Source of the DNA: Aminithiophilus ramosus
GTDB lineage: Bacteria; Synergistota; Synergistia; Synergistales; Aminithiophilaceae
Length of the DNA: 64,000 nt
Assembly (NCBI RefSeq): GCF_018069705.1
Contig: NZ_CP072943.1
Coordinates: 930,001 to 994,000, forward strand
Direction of reading: 5' to 3'
The translations under genes were made by a program, and so were the position numbers. Shown piece by piece: positions 15,231-61,969 of this stretch (its first letter is position 1; every line of letters starts with the position of its first letter). Below the pieces are notes generated by a model. The model searched no databases and was not told where the DNA came from. It saw only the letters and a list, made by a program, of their open reading frames with translations.

Positions 15231-16538
15231 TCAGCCGGGAAAGACGGTCTGGCCGTCGATCTCCGTCTGAAGGGCTCTGAGTCCCTTCTCGACGAGAGAG
15301 CGCCGGAGAGCCTTCTCTTCCTCGAGCGATTTGGTGGGATCACCGAAGGGGTGGGGAATGGCGATCGTCGGAACGATTCGATTGGCTCCGACAGTCTGGG
15401 AGATGGGGACGATGGTGCACATGTGGACGACGGGGAAGCCTGCACGCTCGATTTCCTTGACCATCGTTGCGCCGCAACGAGTGCAGGTCCCTCAGGTCGA
15501 GGTGAGGATGACGGCGTCGACGGCGGCCTCCTTCAACTTTCGGGCGATCTCGCGGCCGAATCGGGCCGCCATGGCCACGGGCGTGCCGTTGCCCACCGTC
15601 GTGTAGAACACCTCGTGGAGCTTGGCGAAAAGGCCCTCTCTCTCCATCTCGCGCAGGACATCGACGGGAAGGACCCTGTCGGCATCGCCGTCGGCCGCCG
15701 TCGGATCGTAGCCGCCGTGAGCCGTCCCGTAGCCCGCCGAGGTGAGATCGTCGACGCCGGAGATGTCGTACTCGCCGTAGCGACTGGCGCTGGAGGCCTC
15801 GATGTGATCGGGGTTCCCCCTGGGAACGATGCCGCCCGACGTGACGAGGGCGATCCGGGCCCCCTTGAGATCCTTGAGGGCGGGAGCGGGAGGAACCCTG
15901 TCGAAGACGGGCATGGGGTACTCCGTCTCGAAAGGCTCCCCTCGGAGCTTGCTGACGAGCATGGCGACGGCCCTCTCCGCTCCCCTTTCGGGGCGGAAGA
16001 GGTTGCGGCGCAGGCCTCGGGCGATGTAGCCCTCTGCGGCGGGGAGGCCCAGTTCCTCTTTCCTGAGGAGCTTGACAAGGAGGGAGGCCATGACGGGAAC
16101 GGCCTTGCGCAGCCCCCGCGCGCTGTCGGCGGCCTCGACGATGACCGTATCCCTGCGGAAGAGGTCGACGCCGGGATTCTCGGGATACATGGCCGTCAGC
16201 GTCGGAAGATAGAGGGTCTCGCCCACGGCCTTGCAGACGGCGCCGCAGGCCGTGCCGTAGCGACCGGCGTTGAAGGCAGGCCCTGCCACGACGCCGTCGG
16301 CTTGACAGGATCGAATGAGCTCGATGATTTCTGCCGTCGCCGCCTCGATGTTCTCGGCGAAGTAGCCGTCGCCGCAGATGACGGTGGCGACGATCTCCGC
16401 CTCGGAACCCAAGGCCGCTGCCAGGGCCTGGCCGGGCCCGACGATGCCCTGGCGCAGAAGGGGCCTCTGGCCGGCAGCCTCTTCCCCGCCGATGCCGGCG
16501 AAAAACTGATTCAGGTAGTGGACCACGCGATAGGTCAC
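15231..16538 (-). CDS. grdB: Selenoprotein B of glycine (or related) reductase, UGA read as selenocysteine
   Basis: The frame is open from 16547 to an in-frame TGA at 15494-15492 and continues to a real stop at 15231. Around the TGA the peptide is TST-Sec-GTCTRCGATMVKE, the conserved selenocysteine site of GrdB-type proteins. GTG 16538 is preferred: AGGAGG lies 9 nt upstream, and MTYRVVHYLNQFFAGIGGE matches the usual GrdB start; an ATG at 16547 directly abuts the ribosome site. The product is then 435 residues with Sec at 349. With GrdE it binds the substrate and passes the carboxymethyl group to GrdA. GrdB, GrdF (sarcosine) and GrdH (betaine) are similar, so the substrate is not certain; the glycine riboswitch favours glycine. 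Confidence 0.93.
15465..15479 (-). promoter_or_regulatory. Candidate bacterial SECIS hairpin for grdB
   Basis: Twelve nt after the UGA a perfect 6-bp stem (CGTTGC / GCAACG) closes a 3-nt GGC loop, within the coding sequence for TRCGA. Bacterial SECIS elements lie directly 3' of the UGA, so position and form fit. SelB binding here is inferred. Confidence 0.5.
15492..15494 (-). other. Selenocysteine UGA codon of grdB
   Basis: In-frame TGA flanked by conserved GrdB residues on both sides; the downstream 87 codons remain open and conserved. This is recoding, not a frameshift or stop. Confidence 0.93.
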
Positions 16539-18647: not shown

Positions 18648-18823
18648 TCTCTGTCCAGATGCCCTGGGGATTCGCCCCGCAAGAGCGGGGGTTGCCCCGT
18701 TGGCAGGCCGAAGCCTTCTCCAGAGAGCTGTCCGACCGCAATCCTCTTTGCCTGAGAGATTCGACGCGATGCGCCTTGCCCCTTCGGCGCCCTGCCCCGA
18801 AGGGCAGAGGCTCTCTTGCGATC
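18648..18823 (-). promoter_or_regulatory. Tandem glycine riboswitch
   Basis: Two consecutive glycine aptamers on the minus strand. Aptamer 1 has P1 (18817-18823 with 18734-18740), the GCCGAAGGGGCAA core and the CTCTCAGGCAAAGAGGA segment. Aptamer 2 follows at once with CTCTCTGGAGA, a GCCAACGGGGCAA variant core and CAGGGCATCTGGACAGAG. It lies between the grd promoter and grdX, so glycine should switch on its own reduction. The ribosome site of grdX (GGGGGT) is complementary to ACCCCC in aptamer 2 (18687-18692), which suggests translational control; this last point is inference. Confidence 0.92.
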
Positions 18824-18842
18824 CTCATCCAGCCTTTCGTTC

Positions 18843-48517: not shown

Positions 48518-49683
48518 GGCTGTTCCCACCTCAGAGAGAGGGAGAAGCGCAGCTTCCCCCCCGGAGTCTGCTGAATGTCGCCCAGTCGCGAATCCAGTCC
48601 CTGCGTCTTCAGGCGGGCCTGAAGGCCCTCGATGTCCCGGACGTCAGGGGCGGCGCCGACGACGTCGGCCCCGAAAGCATTATAGCGCAGCGTCTCGAGC
48701 GTGACGTCGACGGGGGCCCCGCCGGAGCTCCAGGATTCTCCGACGAGGGAGAGGATCTCGGCCAGGGAGGGACCGGCGTTTCCCCCCGGGGAAGTCATGA
48801 GCCGGGCCCGGGCCTGGCTGAGGGGATCGCGGAGGACGCCGTCGTCGCCGAAGGTCTCCCGGTAGAGGGACTCGGAGCGCCTCTGGATGTCCCGGAGGTC
48901 GGCCCTGAAAAGGAAGAGGAAGGAGGCCGCCAGGAGAGAGGCGGCGAGCCCCGTGGCGGCGACGGCCCAGCCGGCCCTCCGGACGAGGGAGAGAAGCCTG
49001 TCGGCCCTCAGGGCGGCATCGATGGCCTGGCCCGAGAGATCGACGCCGTAGAGGCGATGGGAAGGATCGAGAAGCTTCAGGGCGCCCTCGCGAAGAAGGG
49101 CAAGGGCCCGAGGCTCGTCGGCGACGAGGTCGGCCGAGACGATCGAGGCCTCCGCGTCGCCGAGGAACTGGCGCAGCCAGGCGACTTCGGCCTCCATGTC
49201 CCGTCTGTCGCGGGGCTGGCAGCGCAGGGCCAGAGGCTGGCCATCGCCGAGGGCGACGCTGTAGAGGTGGTCGCCATCGCCGAGCAGGGCGCCGTCGCCG
49301 CCCAAAGCGGCCAGGGCCAGGACGGCCGGAACGAGGCGGACCTCCCTGCCGTTGGCGGGCGGAGCCCACTGGCTCCTCTCCCCCCTCGAGACGAGCCAGG
49401 CGACGCCGCGGCTCTTCTTCCCCTCGCTCGCCGTGACAAGGGGAAGGAGGTCCAGCCCCCCTCCGGCGAGGAAGGGCTGAAGGCGCAGTCTGAGAGCCTC
49501 GCGAATCTGCCCCAGGTTGGAGAGGGGCAGCTCGAAGGGGTGAACGGCCACGGTCCGAAAGGGGCAGAGGACGAGGAGGCTCCCCTTCCCCTCCGAAGGG
49601 GACGGGAGATTCCGGGAGCCCTCTCCGGTGAGCTCGAGAAGAAGGTCCTTGCGGGCGAGGCATATCTTGGGCACGTCGGCCAT
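48514..49683 (-). CDS. GspL-like protein
   Basis: A 389-residue protein with a cytoplasmic actin-like part (1-235), a transmembrane helix (AVAATGLAASLLAASFLFLF) and a periplasmic domain. GspL recruits GspE. The match to classical GspL is by architecture and order. Confidence 0.75.
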   Translation of the reverse strand: MADVPKICLARKDLLLELTGEGSRNLPSPSEGKGSLLVLCPFRTVAVHPFELPLSNLGQIREALRLRLQPFLAGGGLDLLPLVTASEGKKSRGVAWLVSRGERSQWAPPANGREVRLVPAVLALAALGGDGALLGDGDHLYSVALGDGQPLALRCQPRDRRDMEAEVAWLRQFLGDAEASIVSADLVADEPRALALLREGALKLLDPSHRLYGVDLSGQAIDAALRADRLLSLVRRAGWAVAATGLAASLLAASFLFLFRADLRDIQRRSESLYRETFGDDGVLRDPLSQARARLMTSPGGNAGPSLAEILSLVGESWSSGGAPVDVTLETLRYNAFGADVVGAAPDVRDIEGLQARLKTQGLDSRLGDIQQTPGGKLRFSLSLRWEQP

Positions 49684-53022: not shown

Positions 53023-53991
53023 TCACGACCTTTCCTCGGCCTCGGGGCCGTGACTGTGAAGCGCCATGCGGATTTCGACGACGCGCTCCCTCTGCCCCTC
53101 TTCGCGGACCTTCCACTGCACGGACCGTCCCGAGGAACGAGCCCTTTCGACGAGGTCGGCCAGAGCCTTCAGGAAACCGTCGTCGTCGACAGGTGGAGAG
53201 ACCTCGGGAGAGGGTCTTCGTTTCCGGGACTTGGAGAGGGGCTCCGTCCTCCTCTCTTCCTTCGGTTCCTCCCTGGGCGTCTCGGCCTCGGCGGGCGCCG
53301 TCTCCTCGGCGACGAGGCCCTCCAGCTCGCGGACGCGCAGCCCCTCGTCGACGGCCCTGCGGGCCAGGTCGATCTGACGCTCCGCCGGCAAGGGAAGAAG
53401 GGCCCGGGCCTGGCGCTCCGAAAGCCGTCCCGAGACGATCAGATCGAGGACGGGCTCGGGAAGACGAAGGAGGCGGAGCTTGTTGGCGATGGCCCCCTGC
53501 GAGCGGCCCAGCCTGCGGGCCAGTTCGATCTGGCTCCAGCCCGTCCGCTCCATGATGCCGCTGTAGGAGCGCGCCTCTTCGGCCGCCGAGAGGTCTCGGC
53601 GCTGAAGGTTCTCGACGAGGGCCAGGACCTGCTGCGTCGCCTCGTCGGCCTCGGTGACGACGGCGGGAATGGTCTTCCATCCCGCCCTTTCGCAGGCCCG
53701 AAGGCGGCGCTCTCCGGCGATGAGCTCGAAGGCGCCGGAGCCGAGGCGGCGGACGACGACGGGCTGAATGAGGCCGAAGGAACGGATCGACTGGGCCAGC
53801 TCCTCCAGTTCCTCTTCGTCGAAATGCTGTCGGGGCTGGAAGGGGTTGGGCCGGAGGGCCTCGATAGGCACTTCGACGAAGCGGGCCGCCTCGGCGTCGG
53901 CCTCGCCCGAGACGGTTTTGGGAACCTCCTTCCGCGCCGGCGGCGAGGCGTTGAGGAAACGGGCCACATCCCATTCGTAACGGCTACCCAA
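53023..53991 (-). CDS. parB: ParB/Spo0J-family partition protein
   Basis: A 322-residue protein with the CTPase motifs RPNPFQPRQHFD, GERRLRACERAG and ENLQRRDLSAAEEA, a helix-turn-helix near residue 165-190, then a charged linker and a C-terminal dimer domain. It would bind parS sites. No parA lies beside it, unlike the usual parAB pair. TTG 53991 has a GGAAGG site. It follows dnaB by 24 bp. Confidence 0.9.
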   Translation of the reverse strand: MGSRYEWDVARFLNASPPARKEVPKTVSGEADAEAARFVEVPIEALRPNPFQPRQHFDEEELEELAQSIRSFGLIQPVVVRRLGSGAFELIAGERRLRACERAGWKTIPAVVTEADEATQQVLALVENLQRRDLSAAEEARSYSGIMERTGWSQIELARRLGRSQGAIANKLRLLRLPEPVLDLIVSGRLSERQARALLPLPAERQIDLARRAVDEGLRVRELEGLVAEETAPAEAETPREEPKEERRTEPLSKSRKRRPSPEVSPPVDDDGFLKALADLVERARSSGRSVQWKVREEGQRERVVEIRMALHSHGPEAEERS

Positions 53992-54015
53992 GGGGCTCCC
54001 TTCCTTCCCTGTCGA

Positions 54016-55362
54016 TCAGCGGCGGCTGTAGATCTGGTCGGCGTTGACGAAGCGGGCGAATTCGCGCAGAAAGACGAGGTGGACCGTCCCCGTCGGGCCG
54101 TTGCGGTGCTTGGCGACGATGATCTCGGCGGCGTTGTCCGTCTCCTCGGCCGTCGTGGCGTTGTAGTAGCCGCCGCGGTAGAGGAGGATGACGAGGTCGG
54201 CGTCCTGCTCGATGGCACCGCTGTCGCGGAGGTCGGAGAGCATGGGGCGCTTGTCGTTGCGCGACTCGACGGCCCGCGAGAGCTGGGAGAGGGCGACGAC
54301 GGGAACTTCCAGTTCGCGGGCGACGGCCTTGAGGGCCCGCGAGATTTCGGCCACCTCCTGCTGTTTGCTCTCGACGCGTTTGGCCATGGACATGAGCTGG
54401 AGGTAGTCGACGACGACGAGCCCAAGCTCGGGATAGAGAGCCTTGAAGCGGCGGCAGCGGGCCCGAAGCTCCAGCGTGGAGAGGACGGAGCTGTCGTCGA
54501 TGTAGAGGGGGGCCTGGGCGAGGACACCGGCGGCCTCGGCCAGGGACTCCCAAGCCGTCTCGTGAAAGGAGCCCGTCCGCAGGTCGTGGATGTTGATGCG
54601 GGCCTCGGCGCCCAAAAGGCGCTGGACGAGCTGTTCGGCCCCCATTTCGAGGCTGAAGACGAGGACGGGGACCTTCTTGCGGACGGCCGCGTACTGGGCG
54701 ATGTTGAGGGCGAGGGCCGTCTTGCCCATGGAGGGACGGGCGGCGACGATGTTGAGGCTTCCCGGCTGGAGGCCGCCCGTGAGACGATCGAAGTCGGCGA
54801 AGCCCGTCGAGACGCCTGTGACGGCCTCGCCGGCCTGGAACTGGATCTCGATCTGGCGAAAGGTGGGGCCCAGGACCTCGCCGACGTGGCGGAAGAGGTT
54901 CTTCCCCCCCCGCTGGGAGATCTCGAAGACGGCCCGCTCGGCCTCGTCGAGGATCTCGTCGACGTCGCGGTCCTCGGCGTAGCCGAGACGGACGATGTCG
55001 CTGCCCACCTGGATGAGGCGGCGATGGACGCTCTTGTCCCTGACGATGGCCACATGATACTCCACGTTGGCCACGGTCGTCACCGAATCGACGAGCTCGG
55101 CCAGGAAGGGCTGTCCCCCCAGCTCGTCGAGAATCCCCTTGCGGCTCGCCTCTTCCATGAAGGTCAGGGGATCGACGGGACGATCCTTCTGAGCCAGATC
55201 GACCATGATATCGAAGGCCCGCCTGTGACGGAGGTCGTAGAAATCTTCGGTCTGGAGGGTTTCGGTCACGAAAAGGAGACCGTCCTTATCCAGGAGCGAG
55301 GCTCCCAGGACGGCCCTTTCGGCTTCCAGATTGTGGGGCGGGACTCTGAGAGGTTCGGCCAA
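54016..55362 (-). CDS. dnaB: Replicative DNA helicase DnaB
   Basis: A 448-residue hexameric helicase: N-terminal domain (PPHNLEAERAVLGA), RecA-like domain with Walker A ARPSMGKTALAL near residue 210 and the DNA-binding/Arg-finger region (SRAVESRNDKRPMLSDLRDSG). TTG 55362 has GGTGGAGG 9 nt upstream and lies 1 bp after the rplI stop. Confidence 0.96.
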   Translation of the reverse strand: MAEPLRVPPHNLEAERAVLGASLLDKDGLLFVTETLQTEDFYDLRHRRAFDIMVDLAQKDRPVDPLTFMEEASRKGILDELGGQPFLAELVDSVTTVANVEYHVAIVRDKSVHRRLIQVGSDIVRLGYAEDRDVDEILDEAERAVFEISQRGGKNLFRHVGEVLGPTFRQIEIQFQAGEAVTGVSTGFADFDRLTGGLQPGSLNIVAARPSMGKTALALNIAQYAAVRKKVPVLVFSLEMGAEQLVQRLLGAEARINIHDLRTGSFHETAWESLAEAAGVLAQAPLYIDDSSVLSTLELRARCRRFKALYPELGLVVVDYLQLMSMAKRVESKQQEVAEISRALKAVARELEVPVVALSQLSRAVESRNDKRPMLSDLRDSGAIEQDADLVILLYRGGYYNATTAEETDNAAEIIVAKHRNGPTGTVHLVFLREFARFVNADQIYSRR

Positions 55363-55363
55363 G

Positions 55364-55810
55364 CTAGTCGGCCTCCACCTTGAGGGTCATTTCGACCTCG
55401 ATGGAGGGGGCGAGGCGGATCCTGAAGGGGAAGATCCCGACCTGGCGAACCGCCTCCTCGAGACGGATCTCCTTCTTGTCGATCCGAGTCTGAAGCTGGT
55501 CGACGAGAGCCGAAGCCATCTGGGCCGTCGTGACGCTTCCGAAGAGCTTGCCTCCCTCTCCGGCGCTGACTTTCACGACAATCTGTCGACCTTGAAGATG
55601 TTTTTTCGTCTCCTCGGCCTGGAGGCGTCCCTTCTCCTGGCGGGCCTCCTTGGCGCCCTGGAGCTCCTTCCAGAGCTTCAGCCTGCCCGGCGTGGCCTCT
55701 TCGGCCAAGCCTCGAGGAAAGAGGTAGTTGCGGCCGTAACCGTCGCTGACCTCGATGAGTTCTCCTTTTTTGCCCAGCTTGCTCACATCCTGCAACAGAA
55801 TCACTTTCAT
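55364..55810 (-). CDS. rplI: Ribosomal protein bL9
   Basis: A 148-residue bL9 with the N-terminal signature [17 protein letters not shown] and [16 protein letters not shown] 55810 follows GGAGGTGA. Located between yybS and dnaB, the conserved order. Confidence 0.97.
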
Positions 55811-55818
55811 CGCACCGG

Positions 55819-56763
55819 TCACCTCCTGAGACGATTCCTCAAATCGTACCAGATGTCGACGACACCGAGCACGAGAACGATCTGAGAGAGAAAGGGAACG
55901 AAGGCCAGAAGGAAGACGACGGCGTAGCGCAGAGGGGCGACCATCTTCCTTGAGACCAGATAAAACCATACCACAGAGAGTCCCTGGAAGAAAAAGAGCA
56001 TAGAGACGAGGAGGCGCAGGTTGAGGCCCGCCTCGACGGCGAACTCCCCCAGGGAGGGGCCGAGAAGCTGAAGGCCCATGGAGGCCAGGAGAGCCCAGAA
56101 GACGCTTTTGGGAAAACGCCACTGGCTGAAGGCAGGCAACGGAGGAAGGCTGAAGCCTCCCAGCCGCCGGACGATGGCGCCGCTGATGACGTAGCTCAGG
56201 AAACAGTCCATGGCCGACGCCATGACGAGAAGGGTCGGGAAGATGCGGGGAAGCAGGGCCACCATGGACCGGAACTGCTCCCTCATCGCCTCGAGGGATT
56301 GTGTCGGAAGGCCGACCGTTCCGTAGAGCCGGACGACGCCGTCGAGAGACTCCTCGAGGGCGGCGCCGTCGAGGCTGAAGGGATTCATTCCCGTCATCTT
56401 GATGAGGATGGCCATGAGGGCCAGCTTGCTGGCCAGGGAGATGACGAGGCCATAGAGGATGACTTCGGAGCCGCTCTTGCACCGCCGGGCCAGGTAGCCC
56501 AGGCCGATGCCGAGGATGCCGAAGCCGAGGAGGAAAAAGAGGGAGGTCACGACGCCGAGAAGGGCCGCCGTGAGGAGCGTCGCCGTAAAGGTCCCCAGAA
56601 GGGCCCGTTTCAGGTCGTGACGGAGACCCAGCACGACAAGAGGGGCCGGGCAGACGAGGGATACCAGAAGTCCCACGACGGGGAGATAGTGGCTGGCCGC
56701 GAAAAGGACGACGGCCAGGGAGACGAGCAGAGAGGCTTCGACAAGGGCCCGCGTCGGTGACAT
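55819..56763 (-). CDS. YybS/DUF2232-family membrane protein
   Basis: About 314 residues with seven to eight hydrophobic helices, matching the DUF2232 (YybS) family found before rplI in Bacillus and relatives. Function unknown; S-component-like folds have been suggested for such proteins. ATG 56763 has GGAGGA 5-6 nt upstream. Confidence 0.8.
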
Positions 56764-56807
56764 GACTTTCCTCCTTCGGGACCGTTCCATCTGAAGGGGA
56801 TCGGGCG

Positions 56808-56930
56808 CCTTCGAGGGCCCGGGAAGAACAAGAGAGCCGAAAGCCCCGAAGGGCCTCCGGCTGCTCCGATGAGAAGGGCGGACCTGCGTCCTCCGAAGGC
56901 CGAAGGAAGAATCCCCTCGGCCCTCGAAGG
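56808..56930 (-). ncRNA. Structured RNA element between rpsR and yybS
   Basis: A 12-bp perfect helix (56808-56819 with 56919-56930) encloses further hairpins, including GCCG-GAG-GCCC-TTCG-GGGC-TTT-CGGC on the minus strand. The whole 123 nt lies between the rpsR stop and the yybS start. It has no trailing T run. It might be an attenuator, a processing site or a partial terminator; I know no named family for it. Confidence 0.55.
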
Positions 56931-56957
56931 ACCCGGGACGAACCTCTCCCCAACCCC

Positions 56958-57191
56958 TCAGTCGGTGCTGAAGGGCAGCAGGGCCATGATGCGGGCCCGC
57001 TTGATGGCCGTCGTCAGCTGGCGCTGGTGTTTGGCACAGTTGCCCGTGACGCGCCGGGGAAGAATCTTGCCCCGCTCGGAGAGGTACTTGCGGAGACGGT
57101 CGAGATCCTTATAGTCCGCATGGGCGACCTTGTCCACGCAGAAGAAACAGACCTTGGGGCGGCGCTTGCCGCGCCTCTTGTTGAATGCCAC
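56958..57191 (-). CDS. rpsR: Ribosomal protein bS18
   Basis: A 77-residue bS18 with KVCFFC near the start, [20 protein letters not shown] and [19 protein letters not shown]. The paired cysteines suggest a zinc-binding form. It follows ssb by 42 bp. Confidence 0.97.
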
Positions 57192-57233
57192 GTTCTTTTC
57201 CCTCCTACCCTTGCACGACCCACGAGGCCTCCC

Positions 57234-57776
57234 TCAGAAGGGAATGTCGGCCTCCTCCTCGCCCGAATCTCCGCCTTCGTACTCGGAGATGTCGAGGGGG
57301 AAATCGTCTGCGCCCGACTTGGGAAGGGGCTTCTGGAAGCCCCCGTCGCGGAAGCTCCCCACGTCGGCTCCGCTCCGCGTCGCCCCGCGATCGCCGCCCT
57401 CGCCGTAGCTCGAGCCCGAAGCGCCCTCGTCACGGCGCCCGCCCAGGAAGGTGACTCCCTGGGCCTGGACTTCGGTGACGTAACGCTTCTCGCCCTGAGG
57501 CGTCTCGTAGGAGCGGGTGTTGATGCTCCCCTCGATCAGCACGGGACGTCCCTTGCTCAGGTAGCGCTCGCAGTGTTCGGCCTGGATGCCCCAGACGACG
57601 ACGGGGATGAAGTCGGTGTGCTCCTGGAGCTCTCCGTTACTCCCCTTCCAGCTTCGTCCCACGGCCACGGTGAAGCGCGCGTAGGCTTTGTTGGCCGCCG
57701 TGTAACGGATCTCGGGGTCACGCGTCAGATTGCCCATGAGGACGACCTTGTTGAAACCTCGTGCCAATGAACCCAC
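57234..57776 (-). CDS. ssb: Single-stranded DNA-binding protein
   Basis: A 180-residue SSB with an OB fold (NKVVLMGNLTRDPEIRYT, FIPVVVWG), a glycine-rich linker and the acidic tip DIPF for partner binding. It lies between rpsF and rpsR as usual. Confidence 0.97.
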   Translation of the reverse strand: MGSLARGFNKVVLMGNLTRDPEIRYTAANKAYARFTVAVGRSWKGSNGELQEHTDFIPVVVWGIQAEHCERYLSKGRPVLIEGSINTRSYETPQGEKRYVTEVQAQGVTFLGGRRDEGASGSSYGEGGDRGATRSGADVGSFRDGGFQKPLPKSGADDFPLDISEYEGGDSGEEEADIPF

Positions 57777-57783
57777 CTCCCGC

Positions 57784-58068
57784 CTATTTCTCGTCGAGCC
57801 TGACGACGATGTGACGGATCACGTCGTCGCGAAGCTTGAGCAGGCGATCAAGCTCCTGAACCTGAGTGGGATCCATGTCGAGAGTGTAGAGAGTGTAGAA
57901 TCCGTCTACGATTTTGTCGATGGGGTAGGCCAGACGCCGTTTCCCCCAAATGTCGACCTTGGCGATCTCTCCGCCAAGACCCCGCACGACCTCGCCCAGA
58001 ACTTCAACAGTAGCCTTGTGATCTTCGATCTCGGGCTTGAGCAGTACCATCAGCTCGTAGGGTCGCAC
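57784..58068 (-). CDS. rpsF: Ribosomal protein bS6
   Basis: A 94-residue bS6 beginning MRPYELMVLLKPEIED. GTG 58068 is chosen because GGAGGTGA lies 5 nt upstream and the family starts there. First gene of the rpsF-ssb-rpsR-yybS-rplI-dnaB run. Confidence 0.95.
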   Translation of the reverse strand: MRPYELMVLLKPEIEDHKATVEVLGEVVRGLGGEIAKVDIWGKRRLAYPIDKIVDGFYTLYTLDMDPTQVQELDRLLKLRDDVIRHIVVRLDEK

Positions 58069-58078
58069 GATTTTCACC

Positions 58079-58129
58079 TCCTCCCTGTGGACTAAGGTCT
58101 CTCCTCTTCGGGAGAGACAGGGACACACG
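58079..58129 (-). promoter_or_regulatory. rpsF leader with candidate S6:S18 binding hairpin
   Basis: In the minus-strand leader, TCCCTGT pairs with ACAGGGA, enclosing a perfect 8-bp stem (58097-58118) whose loop carries CCG. The 3' arm of the outer helix merges into the rpsF ribosome site. rpsF leaders in many bacteria carry an S6:S18 autoregulatory motif with a key CCG; identity with that motif is inference. Confidence 0.5.
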
Positions 58130-58136
58130 CTTGAGA

Positions 58137-58165
58137 ATTATACCCGCAGCCGCTCAGGGGAGCAA
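58137..58165 (-). promoter_or_regulatory. rpsF operon promoter
   Basis: TTGCTC (58160-58165) and consensus TATAAT (58137-58142) with a 17-bp spacer; the -35 overlaps the end of the ftsB-like gene. Confidence 0.8.
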
Positions 58166-58453
58166 GGGCTCGTCGGCCGAAACGACCTGGAGACGATAGA
58201 TCTTCTCGCCGGGCTTGACGAGGTTGAACTGTTCCCGGGCCAGCCGGGCCAATCCCTCCTGCGTCCCGTAAAAGGAGACCTTCTCCTCCATGTCCTGATT
58301 GGTCCGCGACAGACGGACCAGCTCGGCGACCTTTCTGTCCACGGCTCCGCCGAGGCGTGCCGTCCGCCGGAACTCCGTCACGTAGGCCGCGAAGGTCACG
58401 GTGAGGAAGACGACGGCGAAGGTCCAGAGAAGAACCCAGCGGAGGCGGGGCAT
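58154..58453 (-). CDS. Septum formation initiator (FtsB/DivIC-like)
   Basis: A 99-residue bitopic protein: transmembrane helix at about residues 6-26 (WVLLWTFAVVFLTVTFAAYV), a coiled-coil segment and a C-terminal ARLAREQFNLVKPGEKIY motif typical of FtsB/DivIC. It would act in the divisome. ATG 58453 lies 1 bp after the argS stop. Confidence 0.8.
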   Translation of the reverse strand: MPRLRWVLLWTFAVVFLTVTFAAYVTEFRRTARLGGAVDRKVAELVRLSRTNQDMEEKVSFYGTQEGLARLAREQFNLVKPGEKIYRLQVVSADEPLLP

Positions 58454-58454
58454 C

Positions 58455-60131
58455 TCACATGTTCTGGGGAGCCTGGATTCCCAGAAGGGCCAGGGCGTTG
58501 GCCAAGACGACGCGCGTCGCGTCGAGAAGGGCCAGCCGGGCCAGGCAGAGGGAAGGCTCGGCGTCGAGGACGCGATGGGCGTTGTAGAAGCTGTGGAAAA
58601 GAGAGGCCAGATCGTAGAGGAAGAAGGTGACGCGGTGAGGGGCCAGCTCCTCGGCGGCCTTGGCCAGTTCATCGGGGAAGGCCGCCAGCTTGCGGATCAG
58701 GGCCTGCTCCTCCGGCGCCCCGAGGATGGACAGGTCGACGAAGGCATCGGGAAGGACGATTCCCCTGCCCAGGGCCTCACGGAAGACGCTGTGGATCCGG
58801 GCGTGGGCGTACTGGACGTAGAAGACGGGATTGTCGTTGGAAGCCTCCTTGGCCAGGGCCAGGTCGAAGTCGAGGTGACTGTCGCAGCTGCGCATGACGA
58901 AGAAGTAGCGCGAGGCGTCGACGCCCACCTCGTCGATGACGTCGCGAAGGGTGATGAACTGTCCCGATCGCGTCGACATGGAGACCTGCTCTCCTCCGCG
59001 GAGGAGGTTGACGAACTGAATGAGGAGGATCCGCAGGTCTTCGGCCTTCCGGCCCAGGGACTGAACGGCGGCCGTCATGCGGGGAACGTAGCCGTGATGG
59101 TCGGCCCCCCAGACGTCGATGACGAGATCGAAGCCCCGGTCGTATTTGTTCTTGTGATAGGCGATGTCGGACATGAAATAGGTGGCGACGCCGTTGCTCC
59201 GGAAGAGGACCCGGTCCTTGGCGTCGCCGTAGCGCGTGGCACGGAACCAGGTGGCCCCGTCCTGTTCGTAGGCCTGGTCGCGCTCTTTAAGGAAGGCCTC
59301 GGCCGCCTTGACGGCTCCCGTGTCGTAAAGGCTCTTTTCGGAGAACCAGACGTCGTGGTGGACGCCGAAATCGGCCAGGTCGCGTCGGATCATGGCCAGG
59401 ATGGCGTCGGAGGCGTAGACCTGGAAGAGGGGGAGGCTCACCTCGACGGGCTCGTCGAGGTGAACGGGGCCGTCGCGCTCGATGAGCTCCCGGGCCAGAT
59501 CGTAAATGTAGTCGCCCTTGTAGCCGTCTTCGATCATGGGAGCCCCTTCGGGCCTGCCGAGAAGCTCGAAGTAGCGGCTCTGGACCGATTTGCCAAGGAG
59601 AGTCATCTGGAGGCCGGCGTCGTTGATGTAGTACTCCCGCTCCACCTCCCATCCTGCGGCGGCCAGGATGTTGGCCGTCACGTCGCCGACGACGGCTCCT
59701 CTGCCGTGGCCGACGTGAAGGGGACCGGTGGGGTTGGCCGACACAAATTCGACCTGGACCTTGCGCCCCTTGCCGGAAAGGCCGTGACCATAGGCCTCCC
59801 CCTGCCGGCGGACCTCGGCGATGACCTCCGAGGCCCAAAGAGGAGAGAGGAAGAAGTTGATGAAGCCCGGGCCGGCCACTTCGGCCTTCTCCAGATAGCC
59901 GCCCTCCAGATCGAGCCGATCGACGACGGCCTGGGCAATCTCGCGGGGGTTGGTTCCCATGGCCTTGGCCACCTGCATGGCCACGTTGCAGGCCCAATCG
60001 CCCTGTCCCTCCCTGCGGGGGCGTTCGAGCATGATGGGCAAGACATCGGGGAGATTCCGTCCCCTCTCGGCGGCCACCTTTCGCAGCGCCCGCTCCGTCA
60101 GGGAGCGCACCGTCTCTTCAATGTTGATCAA
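58455..60131 (-). CDS. argS: Arginyl-tRNA synthetase
   Basis: A 558-residue class I synthetase with the N-terminal Add-1 domain, the HIGH-type motif in NPTGPLHVGHGRG, the MSTRSG stretch in the KMSKS position and a DALR anticodon-binding domain at the end (LYDLASLFHSFYNAHRVL). It charges tRNA-Arg. It ends 1 bp before the ftsB-like gene. Confidence 0.96.
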   Translation of the reverse strand: MINIEETVRSLTERALRKVAAERGRNLPDVLPIMLERPRREGQGDWACNVAMQVAKAMGTNPREIAQAVVDRLDLEGGYLEKAEVAGPGFINFFLSPLWASEVIAEVRRQGEAYGHGLSGKGRKVQVEFVSANPTGPLHVGHGRGAVVGDVTANILAAAGWEVEREYYINDAGLQMTLLGKSVQSRYFELLGRPEGAPMIEDGYKGDYIYDLARELIERDGPVHLDEPVEVSLPLFQVYASDAILAMIRRDLADFGVHHDVWFSEKSLYDTGAVKAAEAFLKERDQAYEQDGATWFRATRYGDAKDRVLFRSNGVATYFMSDIAYHKNKYDRGFDLVIDVWGADHHGYVPRMTAAVQSLGRKAEDLRILLIQFVNLLRGGEQVSMSTRSGQFITLRDVIDEVGVDASRYFFVMRSCDSHLDFDLALAKEASNDNPVFYVQYAHARIHSVFREALGRGIVLPDAFVDLSILGAPEEQALIRKLAAFPDELAKAAEELAPHRVTFFLYDLASLFHSFYNAHRVLDAEPSLCLARLALLDATRVVLANALALLGIQAPQNM

Positions 60132-60166
60132 TCGTCACACCTCCAGAAATAAGGGGAAACACCTTC

Positions 60167-61969
60167 CTACCGTTTGCGGACGGGGAGCGTGAGGGCGCTC
60201 CACTGATCGCCCCTCTGGATCAGGGCGGCCAAAGTGGCCGCTCCGCCGTCATCGAGGACGCTCGTCGTCACGACGAGGCGGGAACTCCCCTCGATGCTGC
60301 CCGCCCTCTTCTTCTCCCTGAAGGTCTCCGTCAATCGGACGGGCCCCGTCTCCACGTTGCGTCGCGTCGGAAAATCCAGAGGGCGGTAGCCCTGGGGCAG
60401 GGTAATCTCGAAGGCCTGCTCGAAGACGAAGGGGAACTGAAGGGAGAGGGGCCCCAGACCCCGTCGGAGATCGGAGAAGGCCCGAGGATCGACGCCGGGA
60501 ACCTGCAAGAGCAGCGACGCGTTGCCGGGAATCCCCAGCCCTCCCCGGACAGGGTAGGTCACGCGCAGGCCCGCCTTGCGCCGGGCCACTTCGGGCTGGC
60601 CCAGAGACAGAGGGCTTCCCCTGAAGGAGAGCCCCTCGATGCCGTGGGGGGAGACGGCCCCGACGAGGGAGAACCAACCGCCGAAGACATCGACGACGAG
60701 ATCGCCGGAGGCGAATCCCTTCTCGTCGACGGCGAGGCGCCAGGTCAGGATGAGGCGGTTTTCCAGGGCATCTCCGCCGGGAACGGAGACGGAGACGACA
60801 TTGCCCCGATCGAGACGATAAAGGGTCTTCCCCCTGATCTCCGAGGGCGTCTCGCCCAGGGGGACGGCCTGTCCCGGGAGATAATAGGCCTGGGAGAGGC
60901 CCGGAGCGGAAAGGGAGAGGACGGGCCTCAGCCAGAGGGTGCGCGTCGCCGGAACGGCATCGTCCAGTTCCGTCAGAGGCTGCCAGAAAAGATCGCACTT
61001 CCAGCCAGCAGCCGCGAGCCAGCGGGAGAGGAGAAGCGTCCGCTCCCACTCCGTCCAGGGTCCCTCGGCCGGGAGAAGCTCCTGCGGCCGGACCCAGCTT
61101 GCGGGGAGATCCCGCCGAAGGCGCGCCTCTCCATCGACGTAGCCCAACAGGGCCTCGCCACGGCGGATGACGTTCGTCGACGACGTCGCCAGAGCCGGGG
61201 GCAGGGCGAGGTCCAGCCCTGCGGACAGCGATCCCAGCTCCTCGAGGGAGCTGCGGGGGCCACGCCTCAGGCTGAAGGCCAGGGACGGACGTCCGTCGGC
61301 GACGAGGCCGCCGCCCTTCCAGGCCGGGCGATTGACGAGACGCCAGGCATAGCGGTCGCGTCCCTTTTCCGTCGTCTTCGACGGCGATAGTCCCTCCGAG
61401 GAGGTCCAGACGAAGCCCGCCGCCTCGGGGACGTCGACGGTGATTTCCCCCTCCCAGAGGGGAAGGTCCACGTTGGTCCAGAGACGGTCGTCGACGTTGT
61501 ACCGCCGGGGCAGGATCTCGCGGAATTCCAGGGCCAGAACCAGGTCGGCCGTCTCCGGAGGCAGGCGGAGCTCGACGAAGGAGAGGCCCGCCTCTTCCTT
61601 CGTCACGGGCAGGAGAGGCAGGACGAGACGGGAGGTGACGGGATCGTAGAGGCCGGCCTCGAAAACATCGATCTGGCCTCCGGGCGCGATGGGAAGGATC
61701 CAGTGACGCCACGCCGAGGGAAGGCCGAAGGGACCGGCCAGGACGAGCCATCTCTGGCTGCGGGTGAGGCTTCCGTCGGCGGCCAGAGAATAGGCGAGAT
61801 CACGCTTCCAGACCATTCCCTCGGCCTCGGGAAAGGAGACGAGAGGAGGCGCCTCCGAGACGATGCGGCCCATCTCGGCGGAGACGTCCCAATCGGCGGA
61901 GGCGAGGCCCGAGGCCAGCGCCGCCAGGCAGAGGGAAAGAGCGACGACACGCACAATCTTCATGGGCAT
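60167..61969 (-). CDS. Secreted DUF3857/transglutaminase-like protein, function unknown
   Basis: About 600 residues with a signal peptide (IVRVVALSLCLAALASGLAS) and then a DUF3857-like beta domain (WKRDLAYSLAADGSLTRSQR, ILPRRYNVDD). A transglutaminase-like middle region is suggested by WTEWERTLLLSRWLAAAGWK and the WLRPVLS strand, but I do not see a clear Cys-His-Asp triad. A DUF3858-like C-terminal part follows. Probably periplasmic. ATG 61969 or 61963 both fit the GGAGGAG site. Follows secA by 31 bp. Confidence 0.65.
   Translation of the reverse strand: MPMKIVRVVALSLCLAALASGLASADWDVSAEMGRIVSEAPPLVSFPEAEGMVWKRDLAYSLAADGSLTRSQRWLVLAGPFGLPSAWRHWILPIAPGGQIDVFEAGLYDPVTSRLVLPLLPVTKEEAGLSFVELRLPPETADLVLALEFREILPRRYNVDDRLWTNVDLPLWEGEITVDVPEAAGFVWTSSEGLSPSKTTEKGRDRYAWRLVNRPAWKGGGLVADGRPSLAFSLRRGPRSSLEELGSLSAGLDLALPPALATSSTNVIRRGEALLGYVDGEARLRRDLPASWVRPQELLPAEGPWTEWERTLLLSRWLAAAGWKCDLFWQPLTELDDAVPATRTLWLRPVLSLSAPGLSQAYYLPGQAVPLGETPSEIRGKTLYRLDRGNVVSVSVPGGDALENRLILTWRLAVDEKGFASGDLVVDVFGGWFSLVGAVSPHGIEGLSFRGSPLSLGQPEVARRKAGLRVTYPVRGGLGIPGNASLLLQVPGVDPRAFSDLRRGLGPLSLQFPFVFEQAFEITLPQGYRPLDFPTRRNVETGPVRLTETFREKKRAGSIEGSSRLVVTTSVLDDGGAATLAALIQRGDQWSALTLPVRKR

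Follow-up and report, generated by a model that had tools for sequence, protein, structure and literature searches.

The genes rpsF, ssb, rpsR, yybS (DUF2232), rplI and dnaB follow one another in this order on the minus strand of the 64-kb stretch of DNA analysed here (hereafter the window), which comes from a single-contig genome of 3.1 Mb of the phylum Synergistota. The question raised by this locus is whether the 123 nt at positions 56808-56930, between rpsR and yybS, encode a structured RNA with a function of its own. The original prediction placed there a perfect 12-bp helix enclosing GC-rich hairpins, and proposed that this structure, which separates the ribosomal genes from yybS-rplI-dnaB, either might determine how strongly the downstream genes are expressed or might be an unreported cis-element. 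On the upstream side lies rpsR (56958-57191, minus strand; Pfam Ribosomal_S18, 5.1e-28), which encodes S18 and is the last gene of rpsF-ssb-rpsR, and on the downstream side yybS (55819-56763, minus strand; Pfam DUF2232, 2.4e-61), followed by rplI and dnaB, in which Pfam recognises the L9 and DnaB domains. The start codon of yybS is probably the ATG at 56763 rather than that at 56790, since it stands behind an AAGGAGG motif (56770-56776, minus strand), read in the sequence as the likely ribosome-binding site, and since this motif also precedes ATGTCACCGACG in both other species of the genus. The rpsR-yybS gap of a second genome of the same species (G047) is identical to that of the window.

The fold depends on the strand that is read. 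The fold considered earlier was that of the plus strand, which is antisense to all six genes, from rpsF through ssb, rpsR, yybS and rplI to dnaB; on this strand the 123 nt reach a minimum free energy (MFE) of -58.4 kcal/mol (z -2.51, with two of 200 shuffles as good) in a structure that contains the 12-bp helix. The sense (minus) strand folds at an MFE of -74.1 kcal/mol (z -4.81, 0/200 shuffles as good) without this helix, forming a 19-bp hairpin (from 56930 to 56890) and then a second one, capped by a UUCG loop and followed by a U-rich tail. Within 450 nt of sense context, the 35 pairs of these two hairpins have probabilities of 0.81-1.0, save for one at 0.65, while the ten remaining pairs of the isolated fold do not exceed 0.063 and all 12 pairs of the 12-bp helix stand at 0.0 (to four decimals). 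The stretch had also been described as far more ordered than the neighbouring gaps, a comparison that says little, since by the open reading frames the two upstream gaps measure 7 nt (rpsF-ssb) and 42 nt (ssb-rpsR), against 194 nt for rpsR-yybS.

The second hairpin, which lies at 56832-56867 on the minus strand (12-bp core at 56835-56862, where the pattern scan lists its terminator-like site), resembles an intrinsic terminator. Its U-rich tail CTCTTGTTCT occupies 56825-56834 on the same strand, and the first bases of this tail can pair too. The z of the terminator hairpin is -3.83 (none of 200 shuffles as good), and the equivalent hairpins of the genus's two other species reach -4.99 and -4.50, whereas the z of the 90-nt stretch upstream of it, -4.47 in the window's species, falls to -0.29 and 0.03 in the other two. 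Of the two hairpins, therefore, only the second is preserved within the genus. We put at roughly 85% the probability that this element is an intrinsic (Rho-independent) terminator that ends the rpsF-ssb-rpsR transcript, a reading drawn from sequence comparison. Like the known terminators of this class, it has a GC-rich stem with a short loop on the transcribed strand and a U-rich tract directly behind it, and it lies at the end of an operon, recurring, as described below, after the last gene and not inside the unit; it differs from them in the broken U tract of the window's genus and in its long stem. In a Term-seq survey, the longest and most stable terminator hairpins were those of Streptomyces, perhaps due to high GC (PMC12207403). 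A polymerase leaving rpsR would make the GC-rich hairpin with its UUCG loop and then the U-rich tail, and the two together would release transcripts, so keeping the level of S6, SSB and S18 separate from that of YybS, L9 and DnaB. What has been computed is the position of the hairpin, its fold and its recurrence at the junction across Synergistota, and from these we infer that transcription actually terminates there.

Termination may be weak in the window's genus because the U tract is broken (TCTCTTGT in the window, TTTCGATC and TTTTCGAT elsewhere in the genus). CTCTTGTTCT satisfies the scan's rule of 5 or more T in 8, but as a tract it is weak; many relatives have a stronger one. The terminator of this genus is probably leaky, and since the gap shows no promoter-like site, polymerases reading through would account for some or all of the transcription of yybS-rplI-dnaB. 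Between a point 40 nt inside rpsR and one about 7 nt short of the probable yybS start, the window has no -10-like hexamer under a rule that covers one promoter type (A and T at positions 2 and 6, no more than two mismatches to TATAAT, and a -35 position 16-18 nt upstream). The gap is equally empty in a coarser promoter scan of 53500-60500, which puts its two sites on the minus strand inside rpsF and dnaB. No promoter of yybS was seen in the gap in the window's genus.

A hairpin of this type recurs at the junction across the phylum. YybS is present in 168 of 185 Synergistota genomes, and 110 loci around it were taken from these 168, with 20 of them chosen from family f5 and the large genus g3 of family f3 left out; rpsR adjoins YybS in 107 of the 110, and the other three (L079, L093 and L096) were dropped. 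The scan required at least 6 pairs, a loop of 3-10 nt, one mismatch at most, four or more T among the 8 nt that follow the stem and an energy of -12 kcal/mol or lower. In the first set of loci, 68/87 rpsR-yybS gaps contain such a strong hairpin followed by a U tract, compared with 1/87 for ssb-rpsR, 0/86 for rpsF-ssb, 4/87 for the stretch before the rpsR stop and 1/261 for mononucleotide shuffles. With 20 further loci, a terminator-like hairpin is found in 83 of the 107 rpsR-yybS gaps. The scan returned none in the other 24; among these misses, the search placed rpsR and yybS overlapping in four (L067, L068, L070 and L073), and some others (e.g., L032, L112 and L113) hold, by eye, hairpins with a bulge or a loop outside the scan rules. 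As a separate observation, the rpsR-yybS gaps of L056, L080, L081 and L086 are unusually long (217-480 nt) and contain long inverted repeats, possibly inserted inverted-repeat elements.

The stems were also compared pair by pair. In 53 distinct stems the 5' arm is mostly purine-rich and the 3' arm pyrimidine-rich, and positions switch between GC, AU and GU pairs, mostly without loss of pairing. Twelve stems could be compared in register, and alignments in which differing loop lengths shifted the stems were kept out of the counts: 98.5% of their cells are paired and three pairs are changed on both sides, either value being reached by 5 of 500 shuffles, and sliding the stems by 1-3 columns lowers the paired fraction to 64-77%. 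Of the 11 pairs, four are invariant, and 35/500 shuffles reach the observed number of pair types. The pair counts for both the 53 and the 12 stems are partly circular because the scan selects paired stems, a flaw from which the positional controls given above are free.

Whether the hairpin sequence is particular to this junction was addressed with a covariance model (R1) built from 12 junction hairpins of families other than the window's. At E ≤0.5, R1 finds sites in 37 of the 41 genomes searched and gives 27 matches in that of the window (both strands of one palindrome counted apart). Against the window it gave 18 matches at E ≤10, none of which is the window's own rpsR-yybS hairpin. Among the matches listed, the junction hairpin is the best of R1 in 9/37 genomes, three of which contributed to the model (G011, G014 and G016) and six of which did not (G018, G022, G024, G027, G034 and G040); in G027 and G034 it scores at least 10 bits above the next match listed. 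In the other 28, which include the window's, some other site ranks above it or the matches listed lack the junction. The result is thus mixed: some families conserve the junction sequence well, and in others nothing sets it apart. The style of the hairpin is shared with other terminator-like sites, and R1 matches away from the junction are what such a style would lead one to expect. With a simpler pattern, each of 10 genomes yielded 1-7 matches, and the reversed control yielded none. In the window R1 has a strong match at 48528-48562; the hairpin there (48528-48572) is matched on both strands (26.4 and 19.0 bits) and is perhaps a two-way terminator.

An improbable alternative, although the one that survives best, is that a single transcript runs over both gene groups and the stems do no more than protect the 3' end of rpsF-ssb-rpsR after nuclease cleavage (selective RNA processing and stabilisation). 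Stem-loops of this kind at operon junctions are described (PMC8219983), and the missing yybS promoter in the window's genus would agree with it, as would the 19-bp hairpin (56890-56930, minus strand), which has no U tract and stands just before the terminator. However, a U tract accompanies the stem in other families, often TTTTTT or longer, and the 19-bp hairpin is the one that is not preserved. This hairpin was rejected as a second terminator, there being no U-rich tail behind its full stem; the terminator scan picks up its 5' arm in a shorter form of 7 pairs with the tail ATTCTTCCTT, a hit taken as a chance match. The 19-bp hairpin may at most protect the rpsR mRNA at its 3' end.

The perfect 12-bp inverted repeat is present as predicted, its arms at 56808-56819 and 56919-56930 surrounding the GC-rich hairpins between rpsR and yybS. 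On the minus strand, the former is the 3' arm, downstream of the terminator, and the latter lies inside the 5' arm of the 19-bp hairpin. This arrangement might suggest a regulated attenuator or cis-element bound by a ribosomal protein, in which S18, S6:S18 or L9 would shift the RNA between the 12-bp-helix and the hairpin forms and so set the expression of yybS-rplI-dnaB. The two forms share the arm 56919-56930, forcing the 12-bp helix on the isolated 123 nt costs only about 3 kcal/mol (-70.1 versus -73.2), ribosomal proteins are encoded on both sides, and the sequence is well kept in the 9 of 37 genomes in which the junction hairpin is the top R1 match among those listed. Nevertheless, we regard such a switch as very unlikely. 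The forced 12-bp helix leaves the terminator hairpin intact within its loop, so that it would not act as an antiterminator, and the terminator has already been transcribed when the second arm of the helix appears. Moreover, in G001 and G002, the genus's two other species (YybS 82% and 79% identical), the 12-bp repeat is absent from the gap, where no repeat exceeds 8 and 9 bp; those 8- and 9-bp repeats correspond to the terminator stem or, in the case of one 8-bp pair, lie close together near the end of rpsR. Relatives therefore offer no compensatory changes in a helix that both other species of the genus lack, and with the 19-bp hairpin not preserved in them either, the proposal of an unreported cis-element resting on the 12-bp helix finds no support. 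Dinucleotide shuffling of the 194-nt gap produces a perfect repeat of 12 bp or longer in 10 of 1000 trials (mean longest 8.1), which is unremarkable for one pick out of a 64-kb window. As a conserved element the long-range helix is rejected on the fold in context and on its absence in the two nearest species, and it is probably due to chance; neither it nor the 19-bp hairpin is common to the nearest species, and neither needs a function.

Comparison with known RNA families points the same way. The two other species of the genus share neither the 12-bp helix nor a significant fold at the 19-bp hairpin, so nothing beyond a plain terminator, and Rfam recognises no ribosomal leader at E ≤5 in 56700-58300, a region that includes the sequence just upstream of rpsF. 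The leader bound by S6:S18, described as very widespread in bacteria (PMC7247131), belongs to the same operon but precedes rpsF, i.e., it is found at the opposite end (PMC4647458; PMC7247131). At gathering score Rfam has no match in the locus, and membership of a known RNA family was discarded, as the matches there (microRNA families and the like) score far below the gathering scores. Elsewhere in the window, and on the minus strand in both cases, Rfam matches a glycine riboswitch at 18729-18828 (60.4 bits) and a SECIS_4 element at 15454-15491 (57.4 bits), the latter suggesting a selenoprotein gene. This junction is the subject of no title or abstract opening among the publications listed for Synergistota terminators, rpsR/yybS, the rpsF operon and promoters overlapping terminators. 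A mobile or repeated extragenic element of the short inverted-repeat kind, which the 12-bp terminal inverted repeat around some 100 bp of hairpin-forming DNA might recall, can be set aside, as the window's genome holds no second copy at the sensitivity of the genome search, the best other matches being 24-nt pieces (E 0.01).

An additional feature of the terminator-like boundary emerges in the sister family f5, in which a promoter may be embedded in the terminator. An exact TATAAT occurs in 21 of the 87 gaps of the first set, against 2.9 expected from mononucleotide shuffles, a count that includes 40 nt of rpsR and 20 nt downstream (the motif is inside rpsR in L068 and L073). Counted from the rpsR stop, TATAAT is found in 26/107 gaps, and in 18 of these it ends 2-6 nt before a hairpin with a U tract, the hairpin beginning at position 3-7 after the -10 (3-5 in 17 of them). 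Seventeen of the 18 loci belong to eight genera of f5 (L076-L078, L080, L081, L085-L090, L094, L108-L111 and L114) and one (L063) to family f9; a TG lies just upstream of TATAAT in 15 of them, and the hairpin is weak in L080, L081 and L086 (-5.8 to -9.1). The remaining eight gaps with TATAAT have no such hairpin: five are from family f4, where the motif is downstream of the terminator, and three from genus g18 of f5 (L095, L112 and L113), which keeps the TGTTATAAT box with no hairpin behind it, although a large-loop hairpin with a U run is visible by eye further upstream in L112 and L113. As a rule, transcription starts about 7 nt after the -10 element, and therefore the f5 and f9 transcripts are expected to start within the 5' arm of the hairpin and should escape the terminator. 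It is possible, as a tentative extension from these motif positions, that the rpsR-yybS boundary of Synergistota works as a one-way filter. In at least one family, transcripts of yybS-rplI-dnaB starting inside the 5' arm would lack the full stem and pass, and read-through from rpsR would make the full stem and stop; the window's genus would be without that promoter and rely on a leaky terminator. The TATAAT-in-stem layout itself does not apply to the window's genus.

In all, the locus most likely holds a terminator of the ordinary kind, and the long-range repeat enclosing it would be a product of chance. Of the proposed separation of the ribosomal genes from yybS-rplI-dnaB, with an influence on the downstream level, the plainest form is supported, with a conserved terminator-like element at the boundary in the shape of the second hairpin, and the cis-element built on the 12-bp helix is not. 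For the window itself this matters little: an operon boundary is located and one candidate RNA element is struck off. Across much of the phylum it amounts to a rule, according to which rpsF-ssb-rpsR ends in a terminator-like hairpin ahead of yybS-rplI-dnaB, and in the sister family it brings forward a promoter-inside-terminator layout that can be tested.
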